Assembly (NCBI GenBank): GCA_902576815.1
Contig: CACGWQ010000006.1
Span: forward strand, 1 to 64,000
DNA from: an uncultured Pelagibacteraceae bacterium
GTDB taxonomy: Bacteria; Pseudomonadota; Alphaproteobacteria; Pelagibacterales; Pelagibacteraceae
Length of the DNA: 64,000 nucleotides
Direction: 5' to 3'
Shown: positions 5,143 through 59,560 of the stretch, piece by piece
How the letters are laid out: every line of letters starts with the position of its first letter
How positions within the stretch are numbered: position 1 is the first letter of the stretch
Notes under the pieces: model-generated
What the model saw: only the letters and a program-made list of their open reading frames with translations
Databases searched by the model: none
Told to the model about the DNA's origin: nothing
Program-made: the position numbers and the translations under genes

Positions 5143-5177
5143 AATTATTTATAACATAAGTTGTTTGATTTAATAAA

Positions 5178-7376: not shown

Positions 7377-7471
7377 TGGCGGAAGGAGAGGGATTCGAAC
7401 CCTCGGTACACCTTTTCAAGCGTACGGCGGTTTAGCAAACCGCTGGTTTAAACCAGCTCACCCATCCTTCC
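7377..7471 (-). tRNA. tRNA-Ser (anticodon GCU)
   Basis: Read on the minus strand, the acceptor GGAAGGA pairs with TCCTTCC, followed by G and an encoded CCA. The anticodon loop is TTGCTAA (GCU). A long variable arm identifies a class II tRNA, and the T-loop is GTTCGAATC. With the CCA it is 95 bases long. Its 3' end abuts the slt stop codon on the other strand. The GCU anticodon reads AGC/AGU serine codons. Confidence 0.96.
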
Positions 7472-7486
7472 ACGATAATATGTGTA

Positions 7487-7521
7487 ACTTGAAATCATTG
7501 AATATTCAATCATATTCAAGT
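7487..7521. promoter_or_regulatory. nested inverted repeat upstream of soxB
   Basis: A perfect 14-base palindrome, ATTGAATATTCAAT (7497-7510), sits centrally inside outer arms ACTTGAA (7487-7493) and TTCAAGT (7515-7521). It ends 14 bases before the soxB ATG in a 64-base gap. It could be a dimeric regulator's operator or a 5'-leader hairpin. A weak -10-like GATAAT lies at 7474-7479, which would put the repeat at the start of the transcript. No T-run follows, so it is not an intrinsic terminator. Confidence 0.6.
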
Positions 7522-7535
7522 AATTTCTCCAGAAT

Positions 7536-8789
7536 ATGAAAAACAAATATTCAGTATTCTCTCTAATAAAAAATGCTTTATCACAGCATGAGAATTGGCA
7601 ACAAGCTTGGGGAAATCCAGAGCCAAAAAAAGAATACGATGCTATTATTGTGGGTGGTGGCGGACACGGTTTAGCTACTGCTTATTATTTGGCAAAGAAA
7701 CATAATTTAAAAAATATTGCAGTCTTAGAAAAAGGTTGGATTGGTGGTGGAAATACAGGGCGTAACACTACAATCATTAGATCAAATTATTTATGGGATG
7801 CTAGTGCTGGATTATATGATCATGCGCTTAAACTATGGGAAAATTTATCTCAAGAGTTAAATTACAATGTGATGTTCAGTCAAAGAGGTGTAATGAATTT
7901 AGCTCACAATCTTCAAGATGTAAGAGATTTAAAAAGAAGAACACATGCTAATAGACTAAATGGAATTGATGCAGTTTGGTTAAATACTGAGGAAGTTAAA
8001 AAATTTTGTCCAATTATAAATACATCACCTGATATCAGATATCCAGTTTTGGGTGGAACATTACAAAGAAGAGCTGGAACAGCAAGACATGATGCTGTTG
8101 CCTGGGGTTATGCAAGAGGCGCAAGCGATATGGGTGTTGATATAATTCAAAACTGTGAAGTTAAAGGTATAAAAAGAAATGGTGATAAAGTTGAAGGAAT
8201 AGAAACAACTAAAGGATTTATAAAAACTAATAAAATTGGGGTTGTTGCGGCAGGCCACTCAAGTGTGATTGCAAATATGGCTGGATTAAAACTGCCTCTT
8301 GAAAGTAAACCATTACAAGCGTTAGTTTCAGAGCCAGTAAAACCAATTATTGATACTGTTGTAATGTCAAATGCAGTTCATGCTTATGTAAGTCAATCGG
8401 ATAAAGGCGAATTAGTTATAGGCGCGGGAACAGATTCATATGTTTCATATACTCAAAGAGGAAGTCATAATATTGTCGAAGAAACTTTAAAGGCTATTTT
8501 AGAACTCTACCCTATTTTTAGTAGAATGAAGATGTTAAGACAATGGGGAGGAATTGTTGATATATGTCCAGATGCAAGCCCTATTATAAGTAAAACTAAT
8601 ATAAAAGGTTTATATTTTAATTGTGGTTGGGGTACCGGTGGTTTTAAAGCTACCCCAGGATCAGGAGATTTATTTGCTCACACAATCGCAAATGATGAGC
8701 CACATAAATTAAATGCAGCATTTAATTTAAATAGATTTGTAAGCGGTGATCTTGTCGATGAACATGGTGCTGCAGCAGTTGCACATTAA
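7536..8789 (+). CDS. soxB: sarcosine oxidase, beta subunit
   Basis: This is the FAD/FMN subunit of heterotetrameric sarcosine oxidase, which oxidatively demethylates sarcosine to glycine and passes the methyl group to tetrahydrofolate. The 417-residue protein has the dinucleotide-binding fingerprint [17 protein letters not shown] at about residue 37, [16 protein letters not shown], and [16 protein letters not shown] near residue 181-196. The His in that last block (H185) probably corresponds to the residue that binds FMN covalently in characterised enzymes. It is first of soxB-soxD-soxA-soxG, spaced 2, -1 and -8 bases. In SAR11-like marine bacteria this step follows glycine betaine and dimethylglycine breakdown. 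Confidence 0.95.
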
Positions 8790-8791
8790 TA

Positions 8792-9073
8792 ATGTTTTTA
8801 ATTAATTGTCCATTTTGTGGAGATAGAGATCAAAGTGAATTTTCTTCAGGTGGCGAAGCTCATATAGTTAGACCAAAACAACCAACTGAACTTAGCGATG
8901 ATGAATGGGCGGAATATCTATTTATGAGAAAAAATATTAAAGGTATTCAATTTGAAAGATGGAATCATGTTCACGGATGTAGGAAATGGTTCAATGTTGT
9001 TAGAGATACATCTAATGATAAAATACTATCTGTTTATAAAATGGGTGAAAAGCCTCCTGTAAATTATAAGTAA
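8792..9073 (+). CDS. soxD: sarcosine oxidase, delta subunit (zinc-binding)
   Basis: The small 93-residue delta subunit carries structural zinc in heterotetrameric sarcosine oxidase. The ligand set expected from the characterised enzyme is all present and at matching positions: Cys6 and Cys9 in CPFCG, and His59 and Cys63 in NHVHGC. The start is two bases after the soxB stop, and its stop shares a base with the soxA ATG. The strict spacing and gene order leave little doubt. Confidence 0.95.
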   Translation: MFLINCPFCGDRDQSEFSSGGEAHIVRPKQPTELSDDEWAEYLFMRKNIKGIQFERWNHVHGCRKWFNVVRDTSNDKILSVYKMGEKPPVNYK

Positions 9074-12000
9074 TGCCCAATTATAGAATACATAAAACTG
9101 AATATATTGATGAAACTAAAAGAGTTTCATTTAAATATGATGGTAAGACTTATTTTGGATATGAAGGTGATACCTTAGCGTCAGCACTTTTAGCAAATGG
9201 TATTCATTTAGTCGGCAGAAGTTTTAAATATCACAGACCAAGGGGCATAGTTTCTTGTGGAGCAGAAGAACCTAATGCAATTTGTCAAATTGGTAGTAAA
9301 AAAGACTTAACCGAACCAAATGTAAGAGCAACTGAGTTAGAATTGTATGAAGGATTAGAAGCAAGTTCTCAAAATTGCTGGCCTAACGTAAAATTTGATA
9401 TTGGGGGTATTAATAATTTTATATCACCATTAATTCCTGCAGGCTTTTATTATAAAACATTTATGTGGCCTAAGAGTTTTTGGAAAAAAGTATATGAACC
9501 ATTAATACGATTATCTGCAGGCTTGGGAAAATCTCCTACAGAACCAGATCCTGATATCTATGATCACAAACATGTTCATTACGATGTATTAGTTATTGGT
9601 GGTGGAGTTTCAGGTATTATTTCTGCAAAAATGGCTGCAAAAAATAATTTAAAAACTTTATTAATAGATGACAAAAAAATACTAGGTGGTTCTACAATTT
9701 ATCAAAACAATGAGTCTATTAAGATTGATGATAAATTATCAAGTGAATGGTTAAAAAATGAAATTCAAGAAATTAAAAAATTAAGTAATTTAACAATTAA
9801 GACAAGAACAAGTATTGCAGCTTATCATGGATACAATTTTCTTTTAGCTAAAGAAAATTTAACAGATCATTTACCAGAGGAAAAAAAGAAAAATAAGATT
9901 AGACAACGATTATGGAAAATAAGAGCAAAAAAAGTTGTAATTGCAACTGGATCAATTGAAAGACCACTTGTATTCAATAATAATGATAGACCAGGAATAT
10001 TATTATCTAATTCTATAAACAAATATTTAGATTATTACGGCGTTACCTGTGGAGAAAATATAATATTATTTACGAATAATGATAGTGCATACGAAACTTC
10101 AATTTCACTTCATAAAAAAGGTATAAAGAATATAATTGTTGATTTAAGAAAATCTGCTAGCTCTGAATTAATCAAACAAGCAGAAAATCTAGGAATAAAA
10201 ATCTACTTCAATCATGTTGTAACAAATACTTTTGGATACAGAAAAATTAATTCATTAGAAATCATGAAACTATCGGAAGATGGAAATACAACTGTAGGCA
10301 ATAAAATTAGATTAAGTTGTGACTGTTTAGGAATGAGTGGTGGATGGACACCTATGGTGCATATGCATACTCAATCTGGGGGTAAATTAGATTTTAGAGA
10401 TGAAGACCAAGTATTCTTACCAAAAGAAAATAGTGAAGATCAAATTTCTGTTGGTTCATGCAATGGAGATTTTGATTTAGAAAATATTATAGATAAAACA
10501 GTCAATAAAATTAATAAATTCTTAGATATAGATAATCAAGATTACCAGGATACAAATATAATTTGCTCTAAAGAAAATGATAAAAGAAATATATGGCTTT
10601 TACCAAATAAAATACCTTTAGGTAAAACAAAATGCTTTATAGATTTTCAAAATGACTCAACTGCAAAAGATATAAAATTAGCCTTAAAAGAAGGTTTTAG
10701 ATCAATTGAACATGTAAAAAGATATACAACGACTGGTATGGCAACAGATCAGGGAAAGTTATCTAATATGCACGCACTTGGGATTATAGCTGATACAGCT
10801 GGTGTAAAAATGGGTACATTGGGAACAACTACATTTAGGCCTCCATTCACGCCATTAACTTTCGGAACACTAGTTGGGAGAAATGTTGGAAAATTTTTTG
10901 AAGTAGTAAGAAAAACATCCATGCATGAATGGCATGTGGAAAATAATGCAGAATTTGAAAATGTTGGTCAGTGGAAAAGACCCTGGTACTATCCAAAAAA
11001 CAGTGAAAATATGCATGATGCTGTTCAAAGAGAAAGTAAAGCGGCACGTGACAGTGCGGGAATCTTGGATGCATCAACTCTAGGAAAAATTGATATCCAA
11101 GGAACAGATGCATCAGAATTTTTAAATCGAGTTTACACAAATGCTTGGTCAAAACTTGCAATCGGAAAATGTAGATACGGACTTATGTTAAACGAGGATG
11201 GTATGGTTTATGACGACGGTGTTACTACAAGAATATCTGAAAATCATTATCTAATGACAACCACCACTGGGGGGGCCGCAAATGTATTAAGCAAACTTGA
11301 GGATTATTTACAAACGGAGTGGCCAGAGTTAGATGTTTATTTAACATCAGTGACAGATCATTATTCTACAGCAAGTATTTGTGGTCCAAATTCAAAAAAA
11401 ATCCTTAACAAACTTTTTCCAAATTTAGATTTAAGTGATGAAAACTTCCCTCATATGTCATTTAAAGAAGATAAACTTGAAAATATAAATTGTAGAATAA
11501 TGAGAATAAGTTTTACAGGTGAACTAAGCTATGAAATTAACATAGAGTCGAAATATGGACATTCATTATGGAAAATGTGTATAGAATCTGGGAAAGAGTT
11601 TAATTTGACACCTTATGGTACCGAAACAATGCACCTACTCAGAGCTGAAAAAGGTTTCATTATTGTTGGACAAGATACAGACGGCACAATGACTCCTTCA
11701 GACTTACAGATGGATTGGATTGTAAGTAAAAAGAAATATGACTTCATTGGTAAAAGATCTTTATATAGAAGTGATACTATTAGAGAAGATAGAAAGCAAT
11801 TGGTAGGACTACTTACAGATGATCCAAAAGAAATTTTGGAAGAAGGTGCTCAAATTGTTTCAGACGTTAAATCAAAGCCTATAGATATGCTAGGACATGT
11901 AACTTCCAGCTATTTTAGTCCAAACCTAAATAAATCAATTGCCTTAGCTGTAGTTAGGAGTGGAAAAACAATGAAGGGTCAAAAATTAATTATTCCAATG

Positions 12001-12075
12001 GAAAACAAAAATATTAATGTGACCGTTTCTGACACAATTTTTTTAGATAAGGAGAATAAAAGACTAAATGCTTGA
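9073..12075 (+). CDS. soxA: sarcosine oxidase, alpha subunit
   Basis: The large 1000-residue subunit binds NAD and tetrahydrofolate. Domains in order: an N-terminal ferredoxin-like fold (YFGYEGDTLASALLANG, then GRSFKYHRPRGIVSCG); an FAD/NAD-binding fold starting VLVIGGGVSGIISAKMA at about residue 173; a linking helical segment; and, from about residue 600, a GcvT-like aminomethyltransferase domain (RDSAGILDASTLGKIDIQG, RAEKGFIIVGQDTDGT) that would form 5,10-methylene-THF. Length matches the family. It overlaps soxG by eight bases. Together the operon turns sarcosine into glycine plus an activated one-carbon unit. Confidence 0.95.
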   Translation: MPNYRIHKTEYIDETKRVSFKYDGKTYFGYEGDTLASALLANGIHLVGRSFKYHRPRGIVSCGAEEPNAICQIGSKKDLTEPNVRATELELYEGLEASSQNCWPNVKFDIGGINNFISPLIPAGFYYKTFMWPKSFWKKVYEPLIRLSAGLGKSPTEPDPDIYDHKHVHYDVLVIGGGVSGIISAKMAAKNNLKTLLIDDKKILGGSTIYQNNESIKIDDKLSSEWLKNEIQEIKKLSNLTIKTRTSIAAYHGYNFLLAKENLTDHLPEEKKKNKIRQRLWKIRAKKVVIATGSIERPLVFNNNDRPGILLSNSINKYLDYYGVTCGENIILFTNNDSAYETSISLHKKGIKNIIVDLRKSASSELIKQAENLGIKIYFNHVVTNTFGYRKINSLEIMKLSEDGNTTVGNKIRLSCDCLGMSGGWTPMVHMHTQSGGKLDFRDEDQVFLPKENSEDQISVGSCNGDFDLENIIDKTVNKINKFLDIDNQDYQDTNIICSKENDKRNIWLLPNKIPLGKTKCFIDFQNDSTAKDIKLALKEGFRSIEHVKRYTTTGMATDQGKLSNMHALGIIADTAGVKMGTLGTTTFRPPFTPLTFGTLVGRNVGKFFEVVRKTSMHEWHVENNAEFENVGQWKRPWYYPKNSENMHDAVQRESKAARDSAGILDASTLGKIDIQGTDASEFLNRVYTNAWSKLAIGKCRYGLMLNEDGMVYDDGVTTRISENHYLMTTTTGGAANVLSKLEDYLQTEWPELDVYLTSVTDHYSTASICGPNSKKILNKLFPNLDLSDENFPHMSFKEDKLENINCRIMRISFTGELSYEINIESKYGHSLWKMCIESGKEFNLTPYGTETMHLLRAEKGFIIVGQDTDGTMTPSDLQMDWIVSKKKYDFIGKRSLYRSDTIREDRKQLVGLLTDDPKEILEEGAQIVSDVKSKPIDMLGHVTSSYFSPNLNKSIALAVVRSGKTMKGQKLIIPMENKNINVTVSDTIFLDKENKRLNA

Positions 12076-12616
12076 CATTTTACATCCAAATATTTCGAAT
12101 ATTAATAAAAACAATATCGATATTAATTTATCTGAAGAAAAAATTAAAATTAATATCAGGGGAAAAAATAAAGAATTTTTTACCAAAGTGGGTAAAATTC
12201 TATCTATTATTTTACCTTCTGAATCAAATACCAGTTCATCAAATGAAAACTATGATGTTTTGTGGCTAAGTCCGGATGAATGGATGATATATTTTGATGA
12301 AAATAAAAATTCAAATATTTTTGATCAACTTTATAAAGATATTTCGTCTTTAAATTTTGGATCAATTACTGATATCTCTTCACAATTAATTTGCATAAAT
12401 ATAAAAGGAGAAAATATATTTGAATTATTATCATCTGGATCACCTTTTAATTTCGAAAAATTTAAAAATAATATTGGTTCATCAACACAAACAATAGTAA
12501 ATCATATTGATGTAATTCTTCATCACAAATCAAAGAATAATGTTAATTTATTTGTAAGAAGATCGTTTTCAGAACACCTTTATGAATGGTTAGTTGATAG
12601 CTCTAATTTTGCCTAA
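12068..12616 (+). CDS. soxG: sarcosine oxidase, gamma subunit
   Basis: This 182-residue protein resembles the SoxG family, the least conserved subunit, related to the GcvT/YgfZ fold. Recognisable parts are LWLSPDEWMIYF, the Ser/Asp-rich DISSQL segment and a C-terminal RRSFSEHLYEWL that matches the usual S-F-x-x-Y/H-L-x-x-W ending. Position as the fourth gene of soxBDAG supports the call. The shadow ORF at 12072 in another frame is rejected. Its 3' end overlaps that of the opposing MATE gene by 27 bases. Confidence 0.88.
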   Translation: MLDILHPNISNINKNNIDINLSEEKIKINIRGKNKEFFTKVGKILSIILPSESNTSSSNENYDVLWLSPDEWMIYFDENKNSNIFDQLYKDISSLNFGSITDISSQLICINIKGENIFELLSSGSPFNFEKFKNNIGSSTQTIVNHIDVILHHKSKNNVNLFVRRSFSEHLYEWLVDSSNFA

Positions 12617-46848: not shown

Positions 46849-46901
46849 AATTTTAAATTAATTTTTTTAGGAATTGACTGACTTAATTATGTGGCAGCGT
46901 T

Positions 46902-46918
46902 TAGAGATCAAGTCTCTA
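46902..46918. other. inverted repeat in the rpsL leader
   Basis: TAGAGA (46902-46907) and TCTCTA (46913-46918) form a perfect 6-bp stem with a five-base loop, about 55 bases before the rpsL start and after the likely start of transcription. On the minus strand, GGAAT just before it can pair with ATTCC nearer the ATG. That would enclose the hairpin in a larger structure. Its function is unknown. Confidence 0.45.
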
Positions 46919-46941
46919 CATTCCAACCAAAAATTATCGCC

Positions 46942-46969
46942 AAACTACTATAGAAATTGTATTTGTCAA
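46942..46969 (-). promoter_or_regulatory. promoter-like sequence for rpsL-rpsG-fusA
   Basis: A consensus TTGACA (46964-46969, minus strand) is followed after 16 bases by TAGTTT (46942-46947). The -35 is perfect and the -10 moderate. It lies in the rpoC-rpsL gap and would give a leader of about 85 bases. Confidence 0.45.

Positions 46970-59474: not shown

Positions 59475-59560
<86 letters not shown>

Follow-up and report, generated by a model that had tools for sequence, protein, structure and literature searches.

A nested palindrome sits in the short gap before soxB in a 64,000-nucleotide stretch of DNA (hereafter the window) from an uncultured Pelagibacteraceae bacterium. Does it bind a regulator, fold as RNA, or form part of a promoter? 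The original prediction placed it directly before a sarcosine oxidase operon, which is correct for the soxB start but overlooks a divergent tRNA-Ser(GCU) gene on the other side of the gap (7377-7471, minus strand; identified by ARAGORN and matched by Rfam RF00005 with 56.2 bits at 7380-7471). The two genes start at opposite ends of 64 bp, so both promoters must lie inside the gap or overlap its edges. The operon, soxBDAG, is encoded on the plus strand and consists of soxB (7536-8789), soxD (8792-9073), soxA (9073-12075), and a soxG-like gene (12068-12616). The NCBIfam models TIGR01373, TIGR01374, and TIGR01372 matched it above their cut-offs, whereas TIGR01375 matched the soxG-like gene below its cut-off. 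According to a SAR11 study, operons of the soxBDAG kind come in two paralogous versions, and one of the two possibly encodes N-methylglutamate dehydrogenase and not sarcosine oxidase (PMC3160333); therefore, the substrate of the operon in the window may be other than sarcosine. Elsewhere in the window, Rfam RF01823 (rpsL sRNA, known from Pelagibacter) matched positions 46859-46943 on the minus strand with 64.2 bits.

Anatomy and conservation of the element

When the coordinates were read again, the predicted 35-base nested palindrome was confirmed at 7487-7521 within the 64-base gap (7472-7535). It has no strand of its own and consists of an inner perfect palindrome of 14 bases, ATTGAATATTCAAT (7497-7510), flanked by a left outer arm, ACTTGAA (7487-7493), and a right outer arm, TTCAAGT (7515-7521). 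The outer arms are centred on 7504 and the inner palindrome on 7503.5, an offset of half a base, and the midpoint of the gap coincides exactly with the palindrome centre. The prediction had also held that such order was unlikely by chance. This was true of the nested form, which arose in 0.005% of 20,000 dinucleotide shuffles of the gap, but not of the inner palindrome by itself: a perfect palindrome of at least 14 bases arose in 1.3% of the same shuffles, and 15 such palindromes occur in the window, only the one at 7487-7521 being nested. A 14-base palindrome alone is thus unremarkable in AT-rich DNA, and we judged the element to be real because it is both nested and conserved.

Conservation was assessed in soxB loci gathered from a genome search and from GTDB contigs. 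The tRNA-Ser(GCU) gene adjoins soxB in 123 loci, which yielded 79 distinct gaps of 62-71 bp; distinct gaps were taken as the fair counting unit because the two sources overlap in species. The gaps fall into type A, to which the window belongs (n=33, with TGTGTAACTTGAAATCATTGAATATTCAATATTAATCAAGTAATTT), and type B (n=46, with GATTGTATTGAATATTCAATATTTATAAAGTAATTATT plus variants). Among type-A pairs, the inner palindrome and the left outer arm were 100% identical and the right outer arm had a mean pairwise identity of 88.5%, whereas four-fold sites of soxB were 48% identical. The conserved type-A block as a whole (7480-7526, no strand) had a mean pairwise identity of 93%, compared with 35% and 54% in the gap flanks, and in the alignment it ends on either side where the predicted -10 boxes described below have their outer edges. 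These comparisons indicate that the element is under strong purifying selection, and a functional constraint on it is well supported. Relatives that retain soxB beside the tRNA gene retain the element as well, and the idea of a conserved cis-element at the soxB start held when their upstream gaps were compared. A functionless chance palindrome of AT-rich DNA, for which the 15 perfect palindromes in the window might speak, is refuted already by this invariance across the type-A gaps, quite apart from the rarity of the nesting, and we give it practically no credence.

Copy number and dependence on the gene pair

The prediction saw in the palindrome a possible operator of a regulator of methylated-glycine use, and suggested looking for it before other glycine-betaine and one-carbon genes. 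A search of the window's own genome and of the genus genomes found no copy upstream of such genes. Of the 151 genus genomes, 109 had a match to the shared-core pattern with at most three mismatches. A single match was present in 108 of these; the remaining genome had two, the second of which carries three mismatches and looks like chance. In the window's genome, the exact sequence TTGAATATTCAA occurs at the element and once within an ORF, and the remaining near-copies are almost all within ORFs. The motif is therefore essentially single-copy per genome.

Six genus loci have soxB without an adjacent tRNA-Ser(GCU) gene (L021, L043, L099, L102, L130, and L134), and the palindrome was present at soxB in none of them. 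In five of these six genomes the tRNA-Ser(GCU) gene was located and also lacks the palindrome; in the genome of L134 (G001), only tRNA-Ser(UGA) was found. The six loci are scattered on the soxB gene tree, within both types. The sister family, where soxB is an operon-internal gene, lacks the element before it. Since the element is lost at both genes once they are separated, it appears from these comparisons to belong to the divergent pair and to neither gene alone. Together with the single copy per genome, its absence from separated loci makes a regulon-wide operator of glycine and one-carbon genes unlikely; what survives of the operator claim is the possibility of one dedicated regulator. Where the tRNA gene has been displaced in L043, L099, and L021, the soxB side keeps TTGA and a TA-hexamer 17 nt after the -35 hexamer, and the right half of the palindrome is lost.

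Insertions were seen repeatedly at the tRNA-Ser/soxB junction (L102 754-1500, L130, L043/L155, L021/L157, and L099/L159), that of L102 being a methyltransferase-like gene, and genes seem to have been gained there again and again. Two loci that stand apart on the soxB tree, L043 and L099, carry a similar alternative sequence some 45 bp before soxB, ACAATTGAnAAT...AATAAAGTA/TATAAAGTA; this is a hint that a third promoter type has recombined.

Proposed interlocked promoters and rival readings

We propose that the element consists of two interlocked divergent sigma-70 promoters, for tRNA-Ser(GCU) and soxBDAG, whose opposed -35 boxes abut as TTGAAT|ATTCAA; belief and doubt in this reading are about evenly balanced. 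The left half of the palindrome (TTGAAT, 7498-7503, plus strand) would serve as the -35 box of soxBDAG and the right half (TTGAAT, 7504-7509, minus strand) as that of tRNA-Ser(GCU). The predicted -10 box of soxBDAG, TAATTT (7521-7526, plus strand; TAATTA in type B), lies 17 nt after the left half; it is a weak candidate by its score, and its mean pairwise identity is 89% in type A and 97% in type B. The predicted -10 box of tRNA-Ser is TACACA (7481-7486, minus strand), with a 17-nt spacer and 9 nt before the tRNA; TTACAC, shifted by one base, is an alternative, and an earlier version of the model preferred this 16-nt register. Positions 7480-7486 have a mean pairwise identity of 91% in type A. 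So assigned, the geometry in the window is exactly symmetric, each side having a 9-nt leader, a -10 box, and a 17-nt spacer, with the -35 boxes abutting at 7503/7504. The outer arms would sit just upstream of each -10 box, and each -35 box would occupy the first six spacer bases of the opposing promoter. The resulting 12-bp overlap of the core promoters implies that RNA polymerase could bind in only one orientation at a time, and heavy use of one promoter would be expected to depress the other.

Because tRNA genes anchor transcription starts, a two-box promoter model was trained on the upstream regions of 43 other tRNA genes from the window's genome and from a complete relative, G011. Its -35 box resembles TTGAAA and its -10 box TA[T/A]AA, with a spacer of 16-17. 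A model built from 276 protein-gene upstream regions was discarded, as it did not converge to a recognisable motif. With the tRNA-trained model, which supplied the tRNA-Ser boxes in the window, the best tRNA-Ser -35 box fell on the palindrome's right half in 31 of 33 type-A gaps and 24 of 46 type-B gaps, with spacers of 16-18 nt and leaders of 8-13 nt; the earlier version broadly agreed. The score of the tRNA-Ser promoter was 12.3 in some type-B subclades (reached by 0.2% of shuffles) and 4.9 in the window (reached by 31%), so that by this model the position of the tRNA-Ser promoter agrees better than its strength. Many type-B gaps hold another tRNA promoter candidate, TTTATA-16-TACAAT. On the soxB side, TTGAAT-17-TAATT[T/A] from the left half did not score above shuffles, and type A has another, higher-scoring site.

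Under the proposed arrangement, the start sites would precede the tRNA and the soxB ATG by two or three bases, and the soxB mRNA would be nearly leaderless. At divergent genes of G011 (L218-L277), -10-like hexamers 9-16 nt before the ATG are roughly 3-4 times as frequent as at operon-internal genes, and Shine-Dalgarno-like motifs are few. This pattern suggests that mRNAs with no leader or a very short one are widespread in this genome. At dapA, which borders the dapA/slt gap (5143-5177 in the window), TATGTTATAAGTATTTATG is conserved at the start in most relatives, and a conserved TATAAG lies about five bases before the ATG. In view of the G011 hexamers, the scarcity of Shine-Dalgarno-like motifs, and the TATAAG of dapA, a very short soxB leader is plausible.

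The pattern of change within the dyad bears on the leader hairpin that the prediction had offered as a second option. What speaks for an RNA hairpin, in the leader of either soxB or tRNA-Ser, is its folding: positions 7486-7521 on the plus strand fold better than shuffles (z -3.3; about -2.2 for longer stretches). However, none of the seven inner pairs has changed in a compensatory way over the 79 gaps, and the two central pairs alone account for 33 one-sided departures. The left ATTGA is invariant in 79 of 79 gaps, in part by construction as the gaps were anchored on it, though all 79 contained it, whereas the right TCAAT is altered in about nine. One-sided, uncompensated changes argue against a hairpin. 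They count less heavily against a symmetric dimer operator, and they fit two directional elements under unequal constraint. An Rfam search of the element gave no family, and the gap is too short for an upstream promoter of either leader that would not overlap the other gene. The hairpin has thus found no support in the pattern of change, and we regard it as very improbable.

A stronger rival makes the dyad an operator at which a single dedicated homodimeric regulator controls soxBDAG and perhaps tRNA-Ser as well. This is a possibility we take seriously while considering it doubtful. Dyad symmetry, a single site per genome, and the weak soxB core promoter are what such an operator would explain. 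The 100% identity of type A extends to ACTTGAAATCA, spacer bases not read by sigma-70, whereas in the same type-A genomes the tRNA-Thr promoter, used as a control, has a drifting spacer. (The upstream region of tRNA-Tyr, 59475-59560 on the minus strand, was unusable as a second control because a conserved stretch precedes the gene; in type-A genomes, L328-L345, it reads ATATAAAACGCATGTTGTTTAAAGCTTTATTGAACA followed by a GC-rich, hairpin-like sequence.) Moreover, TTGAAA (7489-7494) and a hexamer at 7514-7519 enclose a 19-bp spacer with the type-A dyad at its centre, a MerR-like arrangement. Against this stand the one-sided, never compensated changes and the behaviour of displaced loci: a dedicated operator would be expected to stay with soxB when its neighbour changes, yet the element did so in none of six cases, although an insertion may have replaced the gap. 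Within the window, no regulator gene adjoins the element. The presence of a MerR-family gene was also rejected as an explanation, as it showed no correlation with the palindrome in the few genomes tested; in these drafts, which make this a weak test, no MerR_1 gene turned up in G038 despite its palindrome, whereas G028, without the palindrome, did yield one.

Judging by the sequences, an additional DNA-binding protein at the dyad would nevertheless stay a serious rival to interlocked promoters, because of the invariant spacer bases, the alternative tRNA promoter of type B, and the lack of a like gap in G011. In the divergent gaps of that genome, TTGA-N0-8-TCAA occurs in 2 of 67 where 1.25 are expected, only that of the sox gap is central, and no other central palindrome of this form was found. 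Both arrangements could also be combined, the central dyad of two interlocked promoters being a regulator site that sets the direction of transcription. This would account for the dependence on adjacency as well as for the invariant spacer bases, and activators of E. coli bidirectional promoters commonly favour one direction, thereby repressing the other (PMC12825309). However, the regulator is hypothetical and the combination needs more assumptions than either of its components, and we consider it unlikely. If a direction switch existed, whether by a regulator or by polymerase competition, synthesis of tRNA-Ser(GCU) and of soxBDAG would exclude each other, and serine decoding capacity would be coupled to the catabolism of methylated amines (C1, glycine/serine) in SAR11; we offer this as an improbable speculation.

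Relation to known promoter systems

SAR11 bacteria, which abound in the ocean, possess few transcription factors. Divergent gaps in G011 have a median length of 82 bp, and gaps this short imply that opposed promoters must often overlap. Here a single promoter core appears to serve both a tRNA gene and a catabolic operon, precisely and throughout the genus, and the element offers a testable example of regulation by promoter geometry and not by a regulator. Our literature search found no SAR11 paper on the tRNA-Ser/soxB promoter, and a structured-RNA survey of Pelagibacter does not mention a sarcosine gene or promoter (PMC2704228).

MerR-family activator sites resemble the element in that the type-A dyad is centred in a long spacer between a possible -35 and a possible -10 box. 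In contrast to such sites, the element has no adjacent regulator gene and is missing when the genes are separated, and MerR_1 gene presence did not match it in the few genomes tested.

At the bidirectional promoters of E. coli, the DNA that separates the divergent transcripts is pseudo-symmetric too (Warman et al. 2026, PMC12825309). At these promoters, polymerase binds in either of two orientations, each excluding the other, and competition is seen when one direction is strongly active; the SAR11 element would likewise let one polymerase orientation exclude the other. However, E. coli bidirectional promoters have a common -10 element and starts usually 10, 18, or 23 bp apart (PMC12825309), whereas the SAR11 element has abutting predicted -35 boxes and two distinct predicted -10 boxes, 7481-7486 and 7521-7526. 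These lie 34 bp from each other and the predicted starts about 59 bp, with no -10 box that the two directions would share or flank. By analogy, the element may work like a bidirectional promoter, but it is not a member of that class as defined by Warman et al.

The proposed arrangement also resembles ordinary overlapping divergent sigma-70 promoters, as found in compact genomes, where the gap has no room for two sets of -35 and -10 boxes one after the other. The element differs from these in that its predicted -35 boxes are exact reverse complements that abut at the midpoint, and in that the whole block is conserved across the genus and has no equal among the divergent gaps examined in G011. 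It is therefore best filed under overlapping divergent promoters, as one with an unusually symmetric and conserved core.
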